Part shown: in pieces, positions 1 through 48,847 of the stretch
How the letters are laid out: the number at the start of each line of letters is the position of its first letter
Position numbering within the stretch: position 1 is the first letter of the stretch
DNA from: a virus
Virus record (IMG/VR): IMGVR_UViG_3300030101_001013
Span: 1 to 48,847 of that record
DNA length: 48,847 nt
Strand: one strand, 5' to 3'
Program-made: the position numbers and the translations under genes
The notes under the pieces: generated by a model
Told to the model about the DNA's origin: nothing
Databases searched by the model: none
The model's input: the letters and a program-made list of their open reading frames with translations, nothing else

Positions 1-18
1 ATGGAACATGGGGATAAT

Positions 19-462
19 ATGAAGATATCAGAAGAAGGCAAATCATTAATAAAAAAATTTGAAGGCTGTAGATTAGAAAGTTACAGATGTAGCGCTGACG
101 TGCCTACCATTGGTTACGGTCACACTAGAGGTGTTAAAGATGGTGACACTATAACTCAAGAACAAGCAGACCAAATGTTATCTGAAGATTTAGAAGAATT
201 TGAAGGATACGTTGATAAATATGTAGAAGTTGATTTAACACAAAACCAAAGAGATGCGTTAATTGCTTGGACTTTCAATTTAGGTCCTAATAATTTAAAA
301 ACCAGCACCATGTTAAAAGAATTAAACTCTGGTAATTTCACAAAAGTACCCAGCGAAATTAAAAGATGGAATAAAGCTGGTGGCAAGACATTAGATGGTT
401 TGATTCGTAGACGTGAAGCTGAAAGTCTTTTATTCCAAGGTAAAGAGTGGCATGAGGTCTAA
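19..462 (+). CDS. Phage endolysin, GH24 T4/P1-type lysozyme
   Basis: It cleaves the glycan strands of peptidoglycan at the end of infection. The frame is open from base 1, but the ATG at 19 has a GGGG motif six bases upstream and begins just before the conserved fold, giving 147 aa. From that start the catalytic pattern is Glu15, Cys24 and Thr30 followed by IGYGHT; the 9 and 6 residue spacing matches the Glu-Cys-Thr triad known in P1 Lyz. Cys17 lies two residues after the catalytic Glu, where P1 Lyz has a caging cysteine. No N-terminal signal-arrest segment is visible, so export probably needs a holin. The stop overlaps the terminase start. Because the window begins here, an upstream extension cannot be excluded. 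Confidence 0.9.
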   Translation: MKISEEGKSLIKKFEGCRLESYRCSADVPTIGYGHTRGVKDGDTITQEQADQMLSEDLEEFEGYVDKYVEVDLTQNQRDALIAWTFNLGPNNLKTSTMLKELNSGNFTKVPSEIKRWNKAGGKTLDGLIRRREAESLLFQGKEWHEV

Positions 463-1943
463 TGTCAGAGGTTTCCTTAAAAGACTTTGATATATTATCT
501 CAACAAGACCAAGCTGAAGCCGTAGCTTTACTTAATAGGTTTGAACAGCTAAAAAAGCAAGATTCTTGTCAAAAAGATTTTATAACCTACTTAAAACACA
601 TGTGGCCTGAGTTTGTAGAAGGTCGTCATCATAAAATTATTGGTGAAAAATTTAATCGTATAGCTCAAGGTAAATTAAAACGGTTAATCGTATGTTTACC
701 GCCAAGACACTCTAAATCTGAGTTTGCAAGCACTTTCTTTCCTAGTTGGATGATGGGTTTGCGCGGTAATTTAAAAATAATTCAAACTACTCACACAGCA
801 GAACTGGCAGTCAGGTTCGGTCGTAAAGTCAGAAATATAATTGGTAGCCAAGAGTACAGCACTATATTTCCTGATTTAAAACTGCAAGCTGATAACAAAT
901 CCGCAGGTAGATGGACATCTAATCAAGATGGAGAGTTCTTTGCCGCAGGTGTAGGTGGTGCTATCACAGGACGAGGCGCAGATTTATTGATTATTGACGA
1001 CCCTCACTCAGAACAAGATGCCATGTCACCAACAGCTATGGAAAGCGCTTATGAATGGTACACATCAGGTCCAAGACAGCGTTTACAGCCTGGCGGCATT
1101 ATTATCATTGTAATGACACGATGGAGTACAAAAGACCTCGTTGGAAAAGTGCTTAAAAAACAAACAGATGAATACGCTGATAAATGGGAGGTGGTTGAGT
1201 TTCCAGCGATCATGCCAGAGTCAGACACACCTTTATGGCCTGAGTTTTGGAAAAAAGAAGAACTTTTATCTGTAAAAGCATCTTTACCTATTTCTAAATG
1301 GAACTCTCAATGGCTACAAAATCCTACTGCTGAAGAAGGCGCTATAGTAAAAAGAGAATGGTGGAGAACATGGGATCGTGACGTTCCGGCTTACAGTTAT
1401 GTAATTCAAAGTTACGATACTGCTTTTAGTAAAAAAGAAACGGCTGACTATTCTGCAATAACAACTTGGGCTATTTTTAGTCCCAGAGATGGAGAAGCAG
1501 ATCAAATAATATTGTTGGATGCAAAAAGAGTGCGTGTAGACTTCCCAGAATTGAAAAAATTAGCATGGGAAGAATACAAATATTGGGAGCCAGATTGTAT
1601 ATTGATTGAAGCTAAAGCAAGCGGTACACCCTTAACACAAGAGTTACGCAGGATGGGTATTCCTGTAACATCTTACACTCCAAGTAGAGGACAAGATAAA
1701 ATAGCGCGAATGAACTCTGTAGCACCAATATTTGAATCTGGTATGGTGTGGGCTACCGAAGATCAATTTGCAGATGAAGTAATACAAGAAATGGCATCTT
1801 TTCCTTACGGAGATCACGATGATTACTGTGATTCTGCTACAATGGCACTAATGAGGTTTAGACAAGGCGGTTTCGTATCGCTCGATGAAGACTATCAAAT
1901 GGAGGCAGATTTACTACCACGAAAACGCACGGTTTATTATTAA
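462..1943 (+). CDS. terL: Terminase large subunit (packaging ATPase and nuclease)
   Basis: This is the motor that cuts concatemeric DNA and pumps it into the prohead through the portal. The 493 aa protein has a deviant Walker A motif, LPPRHSKSE, at about residues 79-87, and a Walker B motif, DLLIIDD, at about 174-180. The C-terminal RNase H-like nuclease has a YDTA acid site, a second acidic strand (ILIEAK) and a final DDYCDSA motif. Length and domain order are those of ordinary TerL proteins. It overlaps the endolysin by one base. The small terminase subunit is not next to it but about 34 kb away at 34458. Confidence 0.95.
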   Translation: MSEVSLKDFDILSQQDQAEAVALLNRFEQLKKQDSCQKDFITYLKHMWPEFVEGRHHKIIGEKFNRIAQGKLKRLIVCLPPRHSKSEFASTFFPSWMMGLRGNLKIIQTTHTAELAVRFGRKVRNIIGSQEYSTIFPDLKLQADNKSAGRWTSNQDGEFFAAGVGGAITGRGADLLIIDDPHSEQDAMSPTAMESAYEWYTSGPRQRLQPGGIIIIVMTRWSTKDLVGKVLKKQTDEYADKWEVVEFPAIMPESDTPLWPEFWKKEELLSVKASLPISKWNSQWLQNPTAEEGAIVKREWWRTWDRDVPAYSYVIQSYDTAFSKKETADYSAITTWAIFSPRDGEADQIILLDAKRVRVDFPELKKLAWEEYKYWEPDCILIEAKASGTPLTQELRRMGIPVTSYTPSRGQDKIARMNSVAPIFESGMVWATEDQFADEVIQEMASFPYGDHDDYCDSATMALMRFRQGGFVSLDEDYQMEADLLPRKRTVYY

Positions 1944-7599: not shown

Positions 7600-7869
7600 A
7601 TGGCTATTTCAAGAGCGCAATTAGCTAAAGAGCTAGAACCAGGCTTAAACTCTCTTTTTGGTATGTCTTATGACAGCTACGGTGGTCAAGAATATGCAGA
7701 TATTTTTGCAACCGAAGATTCACAAAGAGCGTTTGAAGAGGAAGTTCTTATTACAGGCTTTGGCAGCGCGCCAAATAAAACAGAAGGTGGATCAGTTGCC
7801 TTTGACAATGCTAACGAGGGCTTCACGGCCCGCTACACACATGATACTGTAGCGTTGGCTTTCGCACTT
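7600..7869 (+). CDS. Major capsid protein, exon 1 (residues 1-90)
   Basis: First exon of the HK97-fold major capsid protein, related to Mu gpT-type heads (ISRAQLAKELEPGLN at the N-terminus). The frame reads on into the intron and stops at 7896, giving a false 98 aa product. The last coding bases, CGCACTT at 7863-7869, pair with an internal guide in the intron, placing the 5' splice site after 7869. Joined to 8153 in the same phase, the protein reads VALAFAL then TEEAIEDNLYDSL, a motif conserved in this capsid family, for a total of 306 aa. An AAGGAG ribosome site precedes the ATG. Confidence 0.9.
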
Positions 7870-8152
7870 AATAATTTCTGTGGGTGCGCTGCGTAGGAAT
7901 ACGCAGGACATAAGATGGTGAATTCAGGGAACATCTCAATAGAGACAATCCTGAGCCAAGCCCGAAAGGGAAGGTGCAACGACTATTCCGAAAGGAAGTA
8001 CACTCAAGCGAGTGGAAGCGCCATCCAACCAGAACGGTTGAAGATATAGTCTGATCTGCATGGTGACATGCAGCAGTCTTGGAAACAAGACGGGATCGAA
8101 AGTAGCGAATCGGTCTGAACATAAAAAGTCATTATAAATCAATGACTTATGG
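7870..8152 (+). ncRNA. Self-splicing group I intron in the major capsid gene
   Basis: A 283-nt intervening sequence without an ORF. P1: exon CGCACUU (7863-7869) pairs with GGGUGCG (7882-7888), giving the expected U.G pair at the splice site. P10: UUCUGU (7876-7881) pairs exactly with the first bases of exon 2, ACAGAA (8153-8158). P2 is CTGCGT/ACGCAG (7889-7894/7901-7906). P5 is CCC-GAAA-GGG (7961-7970). P7 is formed by GACTA (7981-7985) and TAGTC (8047-8051) inside the hallmark AAGATATAGTC box. Further perfect hairpins have GAAA or GTGA loops (7986-7997, 8056-8073, 8076-8091). The intron ends in G at 8152. The compact form and the GAGCCAAGC...GGTGCA core recall bacterial tRNA introns, but the subgroup is uncertain. 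Confidence 0.93.
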
Positions 8153-8803
8153 ACAGAAGAAGCGATAGAAGATAATTTATATGATTCTTTAGGCAAACGG
8201 TATGTGAAAGCACTCGCAATGTCGATGGCACACACTAAGGAAGTGAAGGGAGCAGATGTACTTAACAATGCTTTTTCTTCATCTTTCACAGGTGGTGACG
8301 GCGTTTCGTTGATCAATACTTCTCATCCATTAGCAGGCGGCGGTACGGCCGCTAACAGAGCCACCACAATGGCCGATTTGAATGAGACAAGTCTTGAAGA
8401 TAATCTGATTGACATTTCTACATTCACTGATGATCGAGGTCTTACTATCTCAGTACAAGCGACGAAACTTATTGTTCCGCCACAACTTGTATTTGTTGCA
8501 GATCGTATTCTCAACTCACCAGGTAGAACTGGCACAGCAGATAATGACTTGAACGCAATCAGAAACACAGGTGTTATTCCTGGTGGTTACAGTGTTAACC
8601 ATTACTTGAATGATCCTGATGCTTACTTCTTGATGACAACTGTTACTGAAGCGGGAGAAGGTCTAAAGATGTTCCAAAGAACAGGTATGGAAACATCAAT
8701 GGAGCCTGATTTCACAACAGGTAACATTCGTTATAAAGCGCGTGAGCGTTATAGCTTTGGTTTCTCTGATTGGAGAGGAATCTTTGGCTCGCAAGGTGCA
8801 TAA
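8153..8803 (+). CDS. Major capsid protein, exon 2 (residues 91-306)
   Basis: Second exon, starting with the codons TEEAIEDNLYDSLGKRY and carrying the rest of the capsid fold, with conserved segments SMAHTKEVKGADVLNNAF, a NETSLEDNLIDI region and a final YKARERYSFGFSDWRG. An internal GTG at 8204 could be mistaken for the gene start, but the 17 codons before it are clearly coding and family-conserved. The first base is fixed by the P10 pairing with the intron. Splicing is needed to make an intact coat protein. A strong terminator follows at 8842. Confidence 0.92.
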   Translation, partial: TEEAIEDNLYDSLGKRYVKALAMSMAHTKEVKGADVLNNAFSSSFTGGDGVSLINTSHPLAGGGTAANRATTMADLNETSLEDNLIDISTFTDDRGLTISVQATKLIVPPQLVFVADRILNSPGRTGTADNDLNAIRNTGVIPGGYSVNHYLNDPDAYFLMTTVTEAGEGLKMFQRTGMETSMEPDFTTGNIRYKARERYSFGFSDWRGIFGSQGA

Positions 8804-37819: not shown

Positions 37820-37887
37820 CTGTAATTTGTTTCGTGTACTAGCTCCGAGTCTAAATACACTCCATAATTATTATAATTTGGCTTCAT
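37816..37887 (-). CDS. 23-residue fusion mini-ORF, probable duplication product
   Basis: Reads MKPNYNNYGVYLDSELVHETNYR. The first six residues match the SET protein start (MKPNYN), and the rest matches the end of the 38977 protein (VYLDGELVHETDYR) at 12 of 14 positions, with many synonymous changes. It sits upstream of the zinc-ribbon gene with the same ATGA overlap seen at the methyltransferase. It may be a translation-coupling leader or a remnant of a recombined gene. Confidence 0.5.
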   Translation of the reverse strand: MKPNYNNYGVYLDSELVHETNYR

Positions 37888-38980
37888 ATTTTTTATCCGT
37901 TTGTAATACCTGTACAAACATTCCTAATTCTTGATCAATTCTTGCTTTAGCTAAATCTATGTATTCTTGATTTAACTCTAACAAAACTGAATTACGATTA
38001 TGATTTACCGCAACAATACCTGTTGTTCCAGAACCACCAAAAGGATCAAGAACTGTACCGCCTTCAGGACAACCAGCTAATACACATGGCTCTATTAAAT
38101 CCATTGGAAAAGTTGCAAAGTGCGCTCCTTTAAATGGTTTAGTAGTTACTGTCCAAACTGATCTTCTATTTCTTTTGTCATAGCTCTTTGTTAATCCACT
38201 ATGTGGTTGCAATCCTGTACCTTCGTTATGATATTTGCCTTTTGTTCTATCCCTTGTACCCCAATCTTTTTTTACTGTCTCTTTAATAGCTTCATTGTCA
38301 AAGTAATACTTTGGACTCTTACTTAATAAAAATATGTATTCGTGTGCTTTCGTACAACGATCCGTCACACTTTCAGGCATAGGGTTTGGTTTATGCCAAA
38401 TAATATCTTGTCTCAAATACCAACCATCTTGTTGTAAAGCGAAGGCAACTCGCCAGGGGATTCCAATTAAATCTTTTGGCTTTAGTCCAACCACATTTGC
38501 ACCGCTTCTTTGCAAGTATTTTTTATGATTTTGTTTACTGCCGCCCGCATGTCCACCATTTCTGGCTGCATTATAAGTATCACCAAGATTCAGCCAAACA
38601 GTTCCATCATCTCGCAACACTCGTTTCACTTCTCTAAATACCTTAACCAAGTTCTCTACAAATGCTTCTGGTGTATCTTCAAGTCCGAGTTGACTGTCTT
38701 TTCTAATTGCACCACATTTAGGACACTTACTTTTATAAATAGCATCACCAACTACATTACCTTGATCAAACATGGCTTTATGTCCAGTTGATGTATTTTT
38801 ACTTATTTTTGTGGTTCTCATGTGACTGCAATTAGGATCGCCCCCCACCCATTCAGCAGTACCATAATCACGCAAACCCCAATAAGGTGGTGAAGTAATA
38901 CAAGTATTAATGCTTTGATCCTCTAGTTTTTTAAGTGAGTCTATGCAATCGCCTTGCAGTATTTCAATTAATTTATTCAT
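37871..38980 (-). CDS. DNA methyltransferase (N4-cytosine or N6-adenine)
   Basis: A 369 aa amino-methyltransferase. Motif IV is TSPPYW at residues 29-34, and the AdoMet-binding motif I is DPFGGSGTTG at 312-321, the beta-class order. Inserted between them is a possible zinc knuckle (CPKCG, with a paired CSH upstream). SPPY favours N4-cytosine but N6-adenine is possible. No restriction enzyme lies nearby, so it probably protects phage DNA from host restriction. Its ATG overlaps the stop of the 38977 gene; both sides carry the duplicated cassette. Confidence 0.9.
   Translation of the reverse strand: MNKLIEILQGDCIDSLKKLEDQSINTCITSPPYWGLRDYGTAEWVGGDPNCSHMRTTKISKNTSTGHKAMFDQGNVVGDAIYKSKCPKCGAIRKDSQLGLEDTPEAFVENLVKVFREVKRVLRDDGTVWLNLGDTYNAARNGGHAGGSKQNHKKYLQRSGANVVGLKPKDLIGIPWRVAFALQQDGWYLRQDIIWHKPNPMPESVTDRCTKAHEYIFLLSKSPKYYFDNEAIKETVKKDWGTRDRTKGKYHNEGTGLQPHSGLTKSYDKRNRRSVWTVTTKPFKGAHFATFPMDLIEPCVLAGCPEGGTVLDPFGGSGTTGIVAVNHNRNSVLLELNQEYIDLAKARIDQELGMFVQVLQTDKKYEAKL
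37874..37900 (+). repeat. 27-bp direct repeat, copy 2
   Basis: Matches 37660-37686 except for one base. It includes the end of the methyltransferase gene and the start of the 37816 mini-ORF. See copy 1. Confidence 0.9.
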
Positions 38981-39473: not shown

Positions 39474-39704
39474 TTGTCACAAGATAAAAAGCGTTACTAC
39501 AATCGTGTTAGGCGTACTTGCCTGAAACACGACATCAACATTGTTTACGATGGAGTGCCTAAAAACATGCGTTCCGTAGAGTTATTGAAAGACGGTCAAT
39601 TACTGATGGGTGATTATGCAGAGGATCGCAATCCACTTGATATTAACTGGCAACGCTTACATGAAGACTTAACTAAATATGGTTTTACCGGAGGTGTGAA
39701 ATGA
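39474..39704 (+). CDS. Small hypothetical protein, TTG start
   Basis: A 76 aa basic protein. The TTG at 39474 has a GGAGAAGAAA ribosome site, while an in-frame ATG at 39327 lies upstream of the promoter and is therefore unlikely. It overlaps the recombinase ATG by four bases. No domain recognised; it may be a partner or regulator of the recombinase. Confidence 0.6.
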   Translation: MSQDKKRYYNRVRRTCLKHDINIVYDGVPKNMRSVELLKDGQLLMGDYAEDRNPLDINWQRLHEDLTKYGFTGGVK

Positions 39705-40498
39705 GTAATCCTACAAAACAGATTAATAATATATACGGTTACTGCCGTGTTTCAACCATTGAACAGGCTGAAAACGGCATATCTATTGAGACACAGAAAA
39801 AATTAATATCTGAATTTGTAAAAAATAAATTCAATAAAGATGTTACTGAATGGTTTATAGATGCGGGTGTATCCGGCACTGTGCCTATATTGGAGCGCGA
39901 ACAATGTCGCGCCATGACAGATGTTATGGATGAACACGATATTGTTGTTGCAACGCGCATAGATAGACTTTCTCGTAGTTGCAACGATTTATTAAAAACT
40001 ATTCCACACTTTGAGGGTTGTGGCGTGATCCTTTACCTTTGCGAACAGTTTAACGATATGCCCGTTGTGTATCCAAAAGAAGATAAAGAAAAAGGTTTAG
40101 CAGCAAAATACGACATGAATATCTTGGTAAATCAAATCATGTTGATGGTTTTATCAGCCGTAGCCGAAATGGAATTTATTAACATTAAAAAAAAATTTGC
40201 AGAGGGTAAGATTGCTTGGGCTGAAAGAGGCTACTCAATAGGCGGCGCACCGCCATTTGGCTTTGAGTTTAAAGAAGAAAAATTTAAGTATGGTAAACGC
40301 CTGAAAAGGCGCAAAAAACTCATAGAAGTGCCAGAGGAGCAAGCTGTGATACGGACAATTATAGCGTGTGATAAGCGTGGGCTTGGTGCGCGCCGTATTG
40401 CTAAACAAGTTGCAAACACACATGCAGGCTATGAAAACTTTAAACCCAATAAGGTTGTGAAGATACTTAATCGCAAATTTCAAGGGGTTGGTACATAG
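39701..40498 (+). CDS. Serine recombinase (resolvase/invertase-like)
   Basis: A 265 aa site-specific recombinase. The catalytic serine is Ser18 in YGYCRVSTIEQ, with arginines in ATRIDRLSRS (about 85-94) and a long helix leading to a short recombinase domain (GGAPPFGFE ... RRIAKQVAN). It is shorter than large serine integrases and lacks their zinc ribbon and coiled coil. Possible jobs are integration, resolution or inversion of tail-fibre DNA next to it. No att site or inverted repeat is obvious. Confidence 0.85.
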   Translation: MSNPTKQINNIYGYCRVSTIEQAENGISIETQKKLISEFVKNKFNKDVTEWFIDAGVSGTVPILEREQCRAMTDVMDEHDIVVATRIDRLSRSCNDLLKTIPHFEGCGVILYLCEQFNDMPVVYPKEDKEKGLAAKYDMNILVNQIMLMVLSAVAEMEFINIKKKFAEGKIAWAERGYSIGGAPPFGFEFKEEKFKYGKRLKRRKKLIEVPEEQAVIRTIIACDKRGLGARRIAKQVANTHAGYENFKPNKVVKILNRKFQGVGT

Positions 40499-44692: not shown

Positions 44693-44878
44693 ATGGATAA
44701 AGGCACTAAAGCCTTAAGTGAAATTAGCGCACACGAAAGAGAGTGTACTATTCGCTATCAATACATTGAAAAACGCCTCGACGAAGGTTCTGAAAAGTTT
44801 AAAAAATTAGAATTACTTTTGTGGGGCGTTTATCCCTTTATTGTTACAACGGTCATAGGTGTAGCGGTATTTTTATGA
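44693..44878 (+). CDS. Small C-terminally anchored membrane protein
   Basis: A 61 aa protein with a helical polar N-terminus and a C-terminal transmembrane segment (LLLWGVYPFIVTTVIGVAVFL). This arrangement resembles small phage accessory lysis proteins. Its stop overlaps the next ATG. Confidence 0.6.
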   Translation: MDKGTKALSEISAHERECTIRYQYIEKRLDEGSEKFKKLELLLWGVYPFIVTTVIGVAVFL

Positions 44879-45192
44879 GTGAAGAAATAACCAAAAAAAA
44901 GATTGAGCTAGAGGTAGAGGTTGGCACTACTACTGTGAATCGTGGCATCAATCCTTTTGAAAAGTGGGTGCATTTAGCAAAAACAGTGGACGCTTGGCGT
45001 ATTTTTCCAAGAATCTTCGTAAGCGTGTATATCATATTACTGTATAAAGTAGTCACTTGGTTTATGACATTGCCAGAGCCAAACCTAGAACAAGCAGGAT
45101 TAGTATCTGTCGTAACAGGTGCGATGGCTGCTGTTTTTGGCATATACGCTGGTAGCGCAGGACAAAGTAAGAAGTTTAAAGGCGAAGATTAA
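44875..45192 (+). CDS. Holin-like membrane protein
   Basis: A 105 aa protein from ATG 44875 (an upstream in-frame GTG at 44821 is unlikely). Two hydrophobic segments are seen: about residues 41-63 (IFVSVYIILLYKVVTWFM) and 70-92 (GLVSVVTGAMAAVFGIYAG), the second resembling phage holin sequences in cyanophages. It would perforate the inner membrane to free the endolysin encoded at the window start. Holin identity is by pattern. Confidence 0.65.
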   Translation: MSEEITKKKIELEVEVGTTTVNRGINPFEKWVHLAKTVDAWRIFPRIFVSVYIILLYKVVTWFMTLPEPNLEQAGLVSVVTGAMAAVFGIYAGSAGQSKKFKGED

Positions 45193-45488
45193 TGGAAACA
45201 GCCATTGACCTTATTGGTGATTTAGGTCTACCAATAGCAAGTGGTCTAATAATGGCTTACTTTATATTTCTTATTATGAAACAACTTATGGATGGCTTGG
45301 TATCTGAAATAAAAACCGTTCAAAGTATTACTAAGATGCTTATCACAAGAGCATCTATTATGAATAATGACATCATGCGCATTGATACAATCGTATCCAG
45401 CGCCTTAAATCTACCACCTGATCTTGATCGTATAGCCAGAGCTGAAAACTTTGTTGAGGACGGCAAAATTGATGCCCGCAGAGATTGA
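45192..45488 (+). CDS. Small membrane protein, paralogue of the next
   Basis: A 98 aa protein with a transmembrane helix at about residues 11-31 (LGLPIASGLIMAYFIFLIMKQ) and a soluble helical C-terminal part. The following gene encodes a similar protein (FGFPTVMVIGLGYFVFFVWQ), suggesting tandem duplication. Function possibly lysis or envelope-related. Confidence 0.6.
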   Translation: METAIDLIGDLGLPIASGLIMAYFIFLIMKQLMDGLVSEIKTVQSITKMLITRASIMNNDIMRIDTIVSSALNLPPDLDRIARAENFVEDGKIDARRD

Positions 45489-45748
45489 TGGACGTAGTTG
45501 AGCTAGTACAAAAATTTGGCTTCCCAACTGTAATGGTTATAGGTTTGGGCTATTTTGTATTCTTTGTATGGCAAACCATAACTAAAACAATTGATCCAGC
45601 AGTGCAAGAGATGAAAGTTACCATTATTAGGCTTACTGACCAGTTAAGATTGCTTGATCAAGATATGATAAGGTTGAAAGAGAAAGTTGATACTGTTGTA
45701 CGATTAAAAGACCAGGAGAAAAGAAATGAAAAAGATAATAGTGCTTAG
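45488..45748 (+). CDS. Small membrane protein, paralogue of the previous
   Basis: An 86 aa protein from ATG 45488 (TGATG overlap; the TTG at 45485 is less likely). One transmembrane helix, then a coiled coil (VTIIRLTDQLRLLDQDMIRLKEKV). Overlaps csgF by 23 bases, tying the lysis-type genes to the curli module. Confidence 0.6.
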   Translation: MDVVELVQKFGFPTVMVIGLGYFVFFVWQTITKTIDPAVQEMKVTIIRLTDQLRLLDQDMIRLKEKVDTVVRLKDQEKRNEKDNSA

Positions 45749-46175
45749 TTATCTTGCTTTATTTTCAACATTTGGTTTAGCAGATGAGATGGTTCATAAG
45801 TTTAAATCACCATCTTTTAGTGGCATAAATCAAAGTAGTCACTATCTTACTATTGAAAATCAAGAGTTTAATCGACAAGAATCAATAGAGGCTGAAATAA
45901 AAGCGTATAATGAATCCTTAGAACGTGATGCTGAAAACACAACTTTAGCGCGTTTTATTAGAAATCTTGAATCTAGGGTATACGCTCAACTTTCAAGACA
46001 ATTAGTAGATCAATTGTTTGGTGAGAATCCTAGCACCAGTGGGCTAGTTGAATTATTGGGAAATACAATTGAATATGTGGTTGATGAAACAACTGAACTT
46101 ATTACACTTAGAGTTACCGATTCTGATGGAAATACGACAGAAATTACCGTTCCAATGGGTAGTTTTACTTTTTAG
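45726..46175 (+). CDS. csgF: CsgF-like curli assembly factor
   Basis: A 149 aa secreted protein. Residues 1-19 are a signal peptide cleaved after GLA. The mature start HKFKSPSFSGINQ matches the CsgF pattern F-x-NP-x-FGG, followed by an FIRNLESRVYAQLSRQLVDQLFG helix and the final ITLRVTDSDGNTTEITVP strand seen in CsgF. In curli systems CsgF is exported through CsgG, stays at its mouth and links it to fibre nucleation. An AGGAGAAAAGAA ribosome site precedes the ATG. It is the first gene of the curli block. Confidence 0.88.
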   Translation: MKKIIVLSYLALFSTFGLADEMVHKFKSPSFSGINQSSHYLTIENQEFNRQESIEAEIKAYNESLERDAENTTLARFIRNLESRVYAQLSRQLVDQLFGENPSTSGLVELLGNTIEYVVDETTELITLRVTDSDGNTTEITVPMGSFTF

Positions 46176-46956
46176 TTGTCTGATTTCATCATGCACACTC
46201 TTAATACCTGATCCTATAGATAACAACCTATTACCTATACAAAGGATAGAGCAAGCTCAGATACAAAGCCTGGTTAATGAAGAGTTACTAAATGTTGAGC
46301 CACCAGAGCGAAAACCTGTTATAGCTGTCTATGCTAATTCTTTTCGTGACGAAACAGGTGCGCGTAGGTCAAACAGTCAGTTTGCTACCTTTTCAACAGC
46401 AATAACACAAGCTCCACATGCTTACTTAATACGTGCGCTAAAACACGCAGGTAGAGATAAAGAAGGTTTTTTTGAAGTTGTGGAAAGAGTGGGACTGGAT
46501 CACGTCACAAAAGAAAGACAGCTTATTCGTTCAACCCGCGAGTCTTTTGATGAAGGTCAGAAATTACCACCTTTGAAATTTGCAGGATTAATTATGGAAG
46601 GTGGTGTTATAGGCTATGAGTCAAATAATACCTCTGGTGGCGTAGGCGCTAGATATTTAGGCATTGGTACAAGTAAATCTTACCGTAGAGATACCGTACA
46701 AATATCACTAAGAACAGTGTCCGTAACCACCGGAAAAGTTTTGATGGAAGTTTTGGTATCAAAAACCATTTTAAGTGCATCGCTTGATAACGATATTTTC
46801 CGTTTTGTGGCGCAAGGCACTGAGTTAGTAGAAGTAGAAGGTGGTGTAGTCAGAAACGAATCAATAAACATAGCCCTACAAGCAGCGATAGAGGCGGCTG
46901 TTTTACAAACTATCAAAGAAGGCATACAATACAATTACTGGACAGTACAGAGATGA
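46126..46956 (+). CDS. csgG: CsgG-like outer-membrane curli secretion pore
   Basis: An outer-membrane lipoprotein pore. The ATG at 46126 gives 276 aa, close to E. coli CsgG (277), and a lipoprotein signal ending LISSC, with lipidated Cys23. The hallmark segment IGYESN...SGGVGARYLGIG (about residues 164-181) forms the channel barrel and constriction, and SKTILSASLDNDIFRF follows as in CsgG. The ring would form a large channel for unfolded curlin. It overlaps csgF by 50 bases. The earlier in-frame ATG at 46048 would bury the signal and is rejected. Confidence 0.93.
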   Translation: MEIRQKLPFQWVVLLFSCLISSCTLLIPDPIDNNLLPIQRIEQAQIQSLVNEELLNVEPPERKPVIAVYANSFRDETGARRSNSQFATFSTAITQAPHAYLIRALKHAGRDKEGFFEVVERVGLDHVTKERQLIRSTRESFDEGQKLPPLKFAGLIMEGGVIGYESNNTSGGVGARYLGIGTSKSYRRDTVQISLRTVSVTTGKVLMEVLVSKTILSASLDNDIFRFVAQGTELVEVEGGVVRNESINIALQAAIEAAVLQTIKEGIQYNYWTVQR

Positions 46957-47660
46957 AACACTACACAGCATTGATTTTGTTGTTTTCATTGTCAGCTTTT
47001 GGCGCTGATAATGAAGTGTATGTGGACCAAGCTGGTAACAACGCTGATATAGACATCGAACAGCTAGGCGAATCCAACATCATCGGTGGTCTTAATTCTG
47101 TAGCTGGAACGCTTACAGCGCTTGATCTTGACGGCACAAGCCTCACTCTTGATATCAATCAAATCGGTAACTCAAATAAGTTTCTAGGCGACATCAATGG
47201 AGACTCAATCACTGGTTTTTTTAATTTTGACGGTGACTCCAACAACTTTACGATTCAAGCCGATCCAACCGATACCTACGGGATAGACAGTTCAGATTAC
47301 AATGTTAATGTAACCGGATCATCAAACACCTTTACATTCGATCATGGAACAGGTGCTTTATCTTCTACGATAGACTTAGATTGGACTATCATGGGTGACT
47401 CTAATACCATTGATTATGACCTTGATATTGATGGTGCAACCTCATACATAGATGTTGATGGAGATTCAAATAGCTTAACGTATGACGGTGACGGAGCAGA
47501 TAATGGATATTTTTACTTGGATCACACAGGCGACAGCAGCACCCTCAACGTGCAACAACAGTCAACGATTAACAACGATTGGCTTCAAATCAATTCTAAT
47601 TCTAACAATACTACTTTGTGCGTCATTCAAGACGACCAAGGCACAACAACCTCCTGCTGA
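46953..47660 (+). CDS. Curlin-like secreted repeat protein
   Basis: A 235 aa protein with a signal peptide cut after FGA (residue 18). The mature start VYVDQAGNNADIDIEQLGESN is a curlin repeat (x-Q-x-G-x2-N-x-A ... Q). Several further Gly-Asp-Ser-Asn repeat units follow (GDSNxxxxxxD), giving a probable amyloid-like or beta-solenoid fibre subunit. It ends with two cysteines. Overlap with csgG by four bases indicates it is the natural cargo of that pore. Confidence 0.8.
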   Translation: MKHYTALILLFSLSAFGADNEVYVDQAGNNADIDIEQLGESNIIGGLNSVAGTLTALDLDGTSLTLDINQIGNSNKFLGDINGDSITGFFNFDGDSNNFTIQADPTDTYGIDSSDYNVNVTGSSNTFTFDHGTGALSSTIDLDWTIMGDSNTIDYDLDIDGATSYIDVDGDSNSLTYDGDGADNGYFYLDHTGDSSTLNVQQQSTINNDWLQINSNSNNTTLCVIQDDQGTTTSC

Positions 47661-48684
47661 TATAGGTAAAGTTTCCGAACTTAACGGAAATGCAAGAATC
47701 CTTAGAGAAAATCCTTTAGACGTATCTTTATCTTTGCCAGTTCAGCAAATGGATGATGTTAGAACTGCGTCTGGCAGAGTAGGTATAACCTTTGTTGATG
47801 ATTCTGTTGTAAGGCTTACAGAACACTCAAAGCTTGTTATTACAGAGTATATTTTCAATCCAGACCCAGATAAATCAAAATTAAGTTTACGTTTCGCATC
47901 TGGAACTGCACGGTTTATAACCTCAAAAATGGGGCTAATCAACAAAGAACGTATCAATATAACCACGCCAACAGCACAGATTGTAATCAGAGGCACAGAC
48001 TTCACCACTACTGTTGATGAGTTAGGAAGATCGTTGGTAATACTATTACCCGATGAAAATGGAGATGCTTCAGGTGAAATCATGGTTGCAACTGGAGCTG
48101 GCACGGTTACTTTAAATAAACCATATCAAGCAACTACTGCATCTGTGTACGAAAGTGAGCCTACAAAGCCTGTTCAGCTAGATATTACATTAGATTTAAT
48201 TGACAACATGTTGATAGTTTCACCGCCAGAGGAAGAAGAAGTTGTAGCAGAAGAGCGCGCAGCTAAATCAAATAATGTTTTAGATTTTGATGCGCTAGAG
48301 TTTGAAGAATTAGATTTTGATTACCTAGATGCTGAAGCAGAACTGGCTTTTGAAGAATTAGACATAAATTATTTGGATGTTAATTTTCTTGAGGATTTAC
48401 TGGATGTAATAGAAGAAGTTGATTTGTTACGTGATGATGAAATAGATCAGGTAGAAACAAGCGTTGCGGTGACTGGCACGGCTATCGGTCAAGACCTAAC
48501 AACACAAATAACAACGCTTATTGATGGACAACAAATAAGTTTGCGCAGAAATGTAAATGAAAGCGTTAGATTAGATATAGACGGTTCTGACGCTTACACA
48601 ATTATATTTATACAAGACGGCGTTAGTAAAACGATAACAATTAACGGAGGAGGCAGTTCCGTGATAAAGATCAAACAAGGATGA
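47503..48684 (+). CDS. FecR-domain secreted protein
   Basis: A 393 aa protein with an exported N-terminus: the hydrophobic segment KSILILTILLCASF at residues 29-42, then KTTKAQ and a likely cut before PPADIG. A FecR domain follows (about 50-170: VSELNGNARILRENP ... TTPTAQIVIRGTDFTT). Next is an acidic repeat (LDFDALEFEELDFDYLD) and a beta C-terminus. The ATG at 47503 is chosen for its GGAG six bases upstream. It overlaps the curlin gene by 158 bases in another frame. It probably helps sense or anchor at the cell surface. Confidence 0.78.
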   Translation: MDIFTWITQATAAPSTCNNSQRLTTIGFKSILILTILLCASFKTTKAQQPPADIGKVSELNGNARILRENPLDVSLSLPVQQMDDVRTASGRVGITFVDDSVVRLTEHSKLVITEYIFNPDPDKSKLSLRFASGTARFITSKMGLINKERINITTPTAQIVIRGTDFTTTVDELGRSLVILLPDENGDASGEIMVATGAGTVTLNKPYQATTASVYESEPTKPVQLDITLDLIDNMLIVSPPEEEEVVAEERAAKSNNVLDFDALEFEELDFDYLDAEAELAFEELDINYLDVNFLEDLLDVIEEVDLLRDDEIDQVETSVAVTGTAIGQDLTTQITTLIDGQQISLRRNVNESVRLDIDGSDAYTIIFIQDGVSKTITINGGGSSVIKIKQG

Positions 48685-48847
48685 AAAATCTAATTAAAAC
48701 AATTTTGGTTGTTTTGTTGTTATCAGTGCCATTGATCATGCAATGGACACCTTTAGAAATAATAAAACTTAAAACTTTTGATGCGTTAGTTACAGAAAAG
48801 CAACAATCAAACTATTTTACTGTATTAAATATTACTGAAGAAGATAT
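48681..48847 (+). CDS. CHASE2-domain sensor protein, N-terminus only
   Basis: The frame starts with ATGA overlapping the FecR stop and runs to the window end (55 codons visible). It has a transmembrane segment at about residues 5-22 and then the beginning of a periplasmic CHASE2 domain (LEIIKLKTFDALV ... FTVLNITEEDI). Full CHASE2 proteins usually carry further membrane helices and a signalling output such as a cyclase or kinase, which cannot be seen here. Coupling to FecR suggests a surface signal partner. Confidence 0.75.
   Translation, partial: MKNLIKTILVVLLLSVPLIMQWTPLEIIKLKTFDALVTEKQQSNYFTVLNITEED

Follow-up and report, generated by a model that had tools for sequence, protein, structure and literature searches.

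The virus record analyzed here, IMGVR_UViG_3300030101_001013, is linear and 48,847 nt long, and the whole of it is referred to below as the window. Its right end encodes a curli-type module in which five genes follow one another on the plus strand with overlapping ends. These are a csgF homologue for a secreted CsgG-associated plug (45726 to 46175; PF10614, 1.9e-15; phrog_35372, 1.2e-45), a csgG homologue for an outer-membrane lipoprotein pore (46126 to 46956; PF03783, 2e-44; phrog_20175; PDB CsgG 3x2r, 1.9e-37), a gene for a curlin-like cargo (46953 to 47660; PF07012, 1.6e-4), a gene for a secreted FecR-domain protein (47482 to 48684; PF04773, 1.6e-10; phrog_37870, 3.1e-66), and the first 55 residues of a CHASE2-adenylate cyclase gene (48681 to 48847), inside which the record ends. 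The original prediction, made from the sequence alone, had described this order and these overlaps at 45726 to 48847, and both are present. The first four of its gene assignments are also borne out, as all score above the curated Pfam cut-offs: CsgF at 57.6 bits against 25.8, CsgG at 151.8 against 20.8 and FecR at 41.7 against 24, while the cargo carries one curlin repeat that barely exceeds its cut-off (22.0 against 20.7). The CsgG signature that had been singled out, SGGVGARYLGIG, aligns with SGGVGARYFGIG of Escherichia coli CsgG. For csgG, the open reading frame (ORF) tool gives a TTG start at 46048; an ATG lies at 46126, and the lipobox reads ISSC. PDB sequence searches gave no relevant match for CsgF or for the curlin-like protein. 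Scans for promoters and terminators yielded nothing above shuffled sequence, and neither a riboswitch nor a tRNA was found near the module.

The module was compared across viral loci from two IMG/VR scans (L002 to L015 and L018 to L095), the second of which supplied the best 80 of at least 590 relatives; L018 to L095 are thus biased toward close relatives, and the loci are not independent of one another. Together with the cultured pelagimyophage HTVC008M and methylophage Melnitz, the window and contigs binned into metagenome-assembled genomes (MAGs), they make up 102 loci that could be used, some of them truncated. None of the 102 departs from the order csgF-csgG-curlin-fecR-(second curlin)-CHASE2/cyclase, and the shorter gene strings among them trace to contig ends or to an undetected gene. 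Thus, the recurrence of the gene order in phages, proposed as a check on the prediction, was found throughout. With relatives of the window CsgG in at least 590 IMG/VR stretches, the module appears to be a common tool of abundant marine phages. The large terminase subunit (TerL) of the window is closest to that of 023Pt_psg01 (61.5% identity), followed by HTVC027P and HTVC023P (about 57%), and on this identity the window phage is related to the HTVC023P-type pelagiphages, an affiliation that concerns the phage lineage.

A profile search of MAG contigs with the CsgG alignment returned nine matches, mostly with the viral gene order. Seven loci labelled as bacterial MAGs (L096 to L102; Maricaulis, Rhodobacteraceae, Flavobacteriaceae and Pelagibacter) show the viral module order and are probably phage contigs sorted into bacterial bins. 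The MAG-contig scan was a poor source of bacterial csg operons, and those used for comparison were also taken from a genome search. Separately, the phage record OR851715.1, a 1,499-base "Salmonella phage" entry matching csgG, is possibly a bacterial sequence deposited as phage.

Codon-level comparisons point to maintained function. Between the window and L009, L010 and L018, nonsynonymous divergence (pN) is 0.09 to 0.18 against a synonymous divergence (pS) of 0.68 to 0.87 for csgF, the curlin-like gene, fecR and the two membrane genes that lead the module, and the differences in csgG concentrate at third codon positions (for example, 45, 18 and 145 at positions 1, 2 and 3). The module genes thus look to be under purifying selection and their products look functional. 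Because the order recurs in 102 loci, pN lies far below pS and csgG differs mainly at third positions, a chance arrangement can be excluded. The same data bear on whether the segment is a decaying remnant or bacterial host DNA fused to a phage contig. Such a fusion might be expected to give a linear record that terminates inside the cyclase gene, as seen here; however, the region is common to 14 close viral loci, some of which have phage genes on their flanks (fibre, endolysin, TerL and portal), bacterial csg loci have a different make-up, and the codon-position bias makes constraint evident. We rejected contamination by host DNA on the grounds that independent viral contigs carry the region and that bacterial csg loci differ, and fusion or decay of either kind is in our view extremely improbable. 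A phage-borne module had been predicted, and in relatives the same module is indeed joined to Rz, Rz1, endolysin and TerL genes.

CsgF and CsgG retain the features expected of them. The FxxPxFxG motif by which CsgF docks to CsgG, found in the window, occurs in 93 of 93 loci, and a lipobox-like site in 102 of 104 CsgG proteins; the window CsgG is 42% identical to that of HTVC008M and 39% to that of Melnitz. CsgE (PF10627), an accessory factor of gammaproteobacterial curli systems, had no match in the window, in line with its predicted absence there, and none in six related records that include two complete genomes; the text of PMC7029224 describes it as dispensable for curli. The curlin-like gene lies downstream of csgG in nearly every locus, intact and conserved. 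Its product has a Sec signal peptide (judged by eye) and GxSN repeats and is strongly acidic, with 37 D/E to 2 K/R. The canonical Q-G-N-Q spacing is kept in the first repeats only, and the glutamine ladder is lost in the later ones. A C-terminal cysteine pair is present in 86 of 99 cargo proteins, mean column identity is 57%, and the mature length is nearly fixed (54 of the 91 proteins measured have 217 residues, counted from the DNE motif to the C-terminus). An AlphaFold2 model (mean predicted local distance difference test score, pLDDT, 84.9) forms a beta ladder. A plain Foldseek search with this model gave no match at E <= 0.001; on re-alignment, the Pontibacter CsgA entry 8c50 came first (Z 17.3, 24% identity over 193 residues, root-mean-square deviation 8.9), with unrelated solenoids tying. 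The model is thus that of a beta-solenoid for which curlin identity is plausible.

The two genes that follow would add sensing to export. The 5' end of fecR overlaps the curlin-like gene out of frame by about 180 bases (47482 to 47660). Its start codon is uncertain: the ATG that serves L009 and L010, located 83 bases ahead of the curlin stop codon, is ACG in the window's clade, so fecR would start there at a far-upstream ATG or at a non-standard codon. The predicted FecR structure had a mean pLDDT of 56 and was not used. As for the CHASE2 sensor in the original prediction, the window alone does not bear it out, since the 55-residue fragment had no relevant profile match. The claim stands through relatives: the N-termini in L002 to L008 are 82 to 98% identical to the fragment, and the full-length orthologue in L008 matches CHASE2 (1.5e-27) and Guanylate_cyc (4.7e-21), with both domains also in L010. 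Judged by these orthologues, the gene from 48681 is the start of a CHASE2-adenylate cyclase. The CHASE2 domain and the catalytic Asp/Asp/Lys motifs were found in full-length orthologues only; the standard metal-binding Asp and base-contacting Lys motifs occur in 67 of 71 full-length cyclases, and the other four are variants with the same residues. PADLOC reports a resemblance of the cyclase domain to Pycsar cyclases; this identity was set aside and is read as generic class III similarity. Furthermore, a cyclase-profile match lies within about 4 kb in 3 of 20 alphaproteobacterial FecR-domain loci (L146, L161 and L165; two including CHASE2), with no csg gene. Because such neighbours occur apart from csg genes, the phage module seems to join an exporter to a pre-existing FecR/CHASE2-cyclase pair.

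The genomic setting links the module to lysis. After fecR, L008 and L010 encode the CHASE2-adenylate cyclase, an Rz-like spanin (1.4e-14), an Rz1-like lipoprotein (5.7e-15), a nuclease and an endolysin, and in L010 a TerL 94% identical to that of the window follows about 0.9 kb past the endolysin, with one gene between. An endolysin lies downstream of the module in L004 and L005 as well. The left end of the window begins with an endolysin gene (1 to 462, plus strand; phrog_7, 8.2e-62), followed directly by terL (462 to 1943, plus strand; phrog_38, 5.7e-109). Since the order after the module in L008 and L010 leads to endolysin, and in L010 on to TerL, the two ends of the window are most likely contiguous in the phage genome apart from about 3 kb that the record lacks, giving the order cyclase-Rz-Rz1-nuclease-endolysin-TerL. 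By this gene order, the module is part of the lysis cassette in the window's clade, where Rz, Rz1, nuclease, endolysin and TerL genes come after it. A lysis gene (endolysin, Rz, Rz1 or a three-transmembrane membrane gene) is close to 33 of the 43 complete modules whose downstream sequence reaches 1.5 kb or more; the other 10 include both cultured myophages. The three-transmembrane gene of other clades received no Pfam support as a holin.

Upstream, short membrane proteins stand at the head of the operon. A gene for a small membrane protein, a candidate holin by position (44821 to 45192, plus strand; phrog_10198, 3.1e-20), has no Pfam family over cut-off; in the window's clade, most loci have it ahead of the module. 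It is followed on the same strand by two genes for short membrane/coiled-coil proteins, copy A (45192 to 45488; phrog_18771, 3.2e-22; no kinase domain) and copy B (45488 to 45748; phrog_18771, 3.4e-24), the latter with orthologues in HTVC008M and Melnitz. The ORF tool starts copy B at TTG 45485, and an ATG lies at 45488. A phrog_18771 gene, single or double, is immediately 5' of csgF in all 84 loci with a recognised upstream gene, in podo- and myophages alike; in the other 18 of the 102 there is too little sequence upstream of csgF for evaluation. As read from their sequences, these proteins have about 87 to 116 residues, one N-terminal hydrophobic segment and a coiled coil. Thirteen of 13 diverse members match phrog_18771, and none of the 13 has a kinase domain. 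Seven weakly match the holin family phrog_4898 (best 2.1e-5), and four match phrog_1296. Consequently, where holin-like genes had been claimed directly upstream, the short membrane proteins are present and their holin likeness is weakly supported.

Since the export parts and the cargo are all present, a self-contained exporter, as originally claimed, is the best reading. The working model we favor, with a rough probability of 0.55, is that CsgG/CsgF exports a curlin-like coat late in infection and coupled to lysis, with the envelope sensed by the FecR/CHASE2-cyclase pair; the pore, export and sensing steps are inferred from homology and gene anatomy. Late in infection, the lipoprotein CsgG would form an outer-membrane pore capped by CsgF, and the Sec-exported curlin-like protein would leave through it and coat the infected cell. 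The secreted FecR protein and the periplasmic CHASE2 domain would report the state of the envelope or of secretion and thereby set the cyclase's production of cyclic AMP (cAMP). The short holin-like membrane proteins at the operon head would link expression of the module, and perhaps also its activity, to when lysis occurs. The phage would probably gain from a changed surface on the dying cell and on its debris, through aggregation of neighbouring cells or masking of receptors against superinfection and wasted adsorption.

Several observations weigh against this reading. The surface fibre of the original claim is unproven and stays a prediction, as does secretion. With its degenerate repeats and strong acidity, the cargo may not form amyloid. 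CsgE is missing from the window and the six related records, the holin similarity of phrog_18771 is weak, and the myophage modules sit away from recognised lysis genes. In addition, no clumping was observed in Melnitz infections by Buchholz et al. (PMC9004378).

The absence of clumping is also in keeping with the proposal of Buchholz et al. (2022) that CsgG, with or without CsgF, is a pinholin- or secretin-like lysis pore that depolarises or permeabilises the envelope and exports no fibre. The adjoining endolysin, spanin and holin-like genes and the weak holin likeness of phrog_18771 would fit it too. However, the proposal presupposes that Melnitz lacks csgA/B, whereas the Melnitz record, like nearly all loci compared here, has a curlin-like gene after csgG. 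Moreover, CsgF retains its CsgG-docking motif, homology makes CsgG a lipoprotein of the outer membrane, unlike a pinholin of the inner membrane, and a pore alone would leave FecR and the cyclase without a role; we consider a pore of this kind unlikely. The secreted, conserved cargo of nearly fixed length, and hosts that lack curli (PMC9599517), could instead fit a block to superinfection, in which surface receptors of the infected cell or of debris are masked or occupied by the curlin-like protein or by the CsgG/CsgF complex. Such a shield is compatible with the same machinery as lysis-coupled coat export and differs from it only in the purpose of the coat. We also hold it to be improbable, as no receptor-binding domain was recognised and such blocks usually act early, whereas the module sits among lysis genes. 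A tentative extension of coat export, possible though doubtful, is that the phrog_18771 holin-like proteins and the CsgFG exporter form one device whose envelope sensor, the FecR/CHASE2-cyclase pair, sets when the surface is coated and when the cell bursts. Lysis-cassette placement, a holin-like leading gene and an intact cargo make the choice between fibre, pore and shield testable by specific deletions and assays, and the same evidence argues against the pore-only model and the published "histidine kinase" label discussed below.

Two features of the record lie away from the module. A group I intron (RF00028; 7859 to 8073, 101.9 bits, E 2.2e-25), the sole Rfam match, apparently splits the major capsid gene, with an ORF before it (7600 to 7896) and one after it (8204 to 8803; phrog_371 major head protein). 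A DNA methylase gene (37874 to 38980, minus strand; PF01555, 1.4e-50) lies near a serine recombinase gene (39701 to 40498, plus strand; PF00239, 8.8e-22) shortly ahead of the tail fibre genes; the two may form an integration or inversion module.

With the bacterial curli (type VIII) system, the module shares CsgG, CsgF and, plausibly, a curlin-repeat cargo; the six bacterial csgFG loci compared (L103 and L121 to L125) differ in having csgF-csgG with separate curlins. As Wittmers et al. had claimed, no FecR, CHASE2-cyclase or phrog_18771 match was found in these six. Among phages, csgF and csgG were reported by Zaragoza-Solas (2020; PMC7029224), and the lysis-pore idea for Melnitz comes from Buchholz (2022; PMC9004378). 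HTVC008M and Melnitz, described in those papers, share with the window two phrog_18771 genes followed by csgF, csgG, curlin-like, FecR and CHASE2/cyclase genes in the same order. They differ in an extra curlin-like gene before the cyclase, the Melnitz GenBank record holding two curlin-associated genes, and in a location between single-stranded DNA-binding-protein and tail genes with no recognised lysis genes adjoining.

The closest known counterpart is the type VIII secretion module of HTVC023P-type podophages and pelagimyophages, described in full as csgF-csgG-csgA/B-fecR-cyclase in SAR11 podo- and myophages by Wittmers et al. (2022; PMC9599517). The window shares with it this order, the absence of CsgE and a related phage lineage (TerL 57 to 62% identical to HTVC023P, HTVC027P and 023Pt_psg01), and the published order csgF-csgG-csgA/B-fecR-(csgA/B)-cyclase is that of the window and L002 to L008. 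In contrast, the window's clade has no second curlin gene and places the module inside the lysis cassette. Wittmers et al. annotate the gene or genes before csgF as histidine kinase, corresponding by position to the short phrog_18771 membrane protein; because the leading-gene proteins are short, belong to phrog_18771 and have no kinase domain, this label looks doubtful. No description of the lysis-cassette placement or of a holin-like leading gene was found in the literature, most subscription journals being outside the search. The module and its gene order are thus previously published, and what is added here is the link to the lysis cassette, the identity of the leading gene, the order over 102 loci, the intact cargo and the contrast with bacterial loci.

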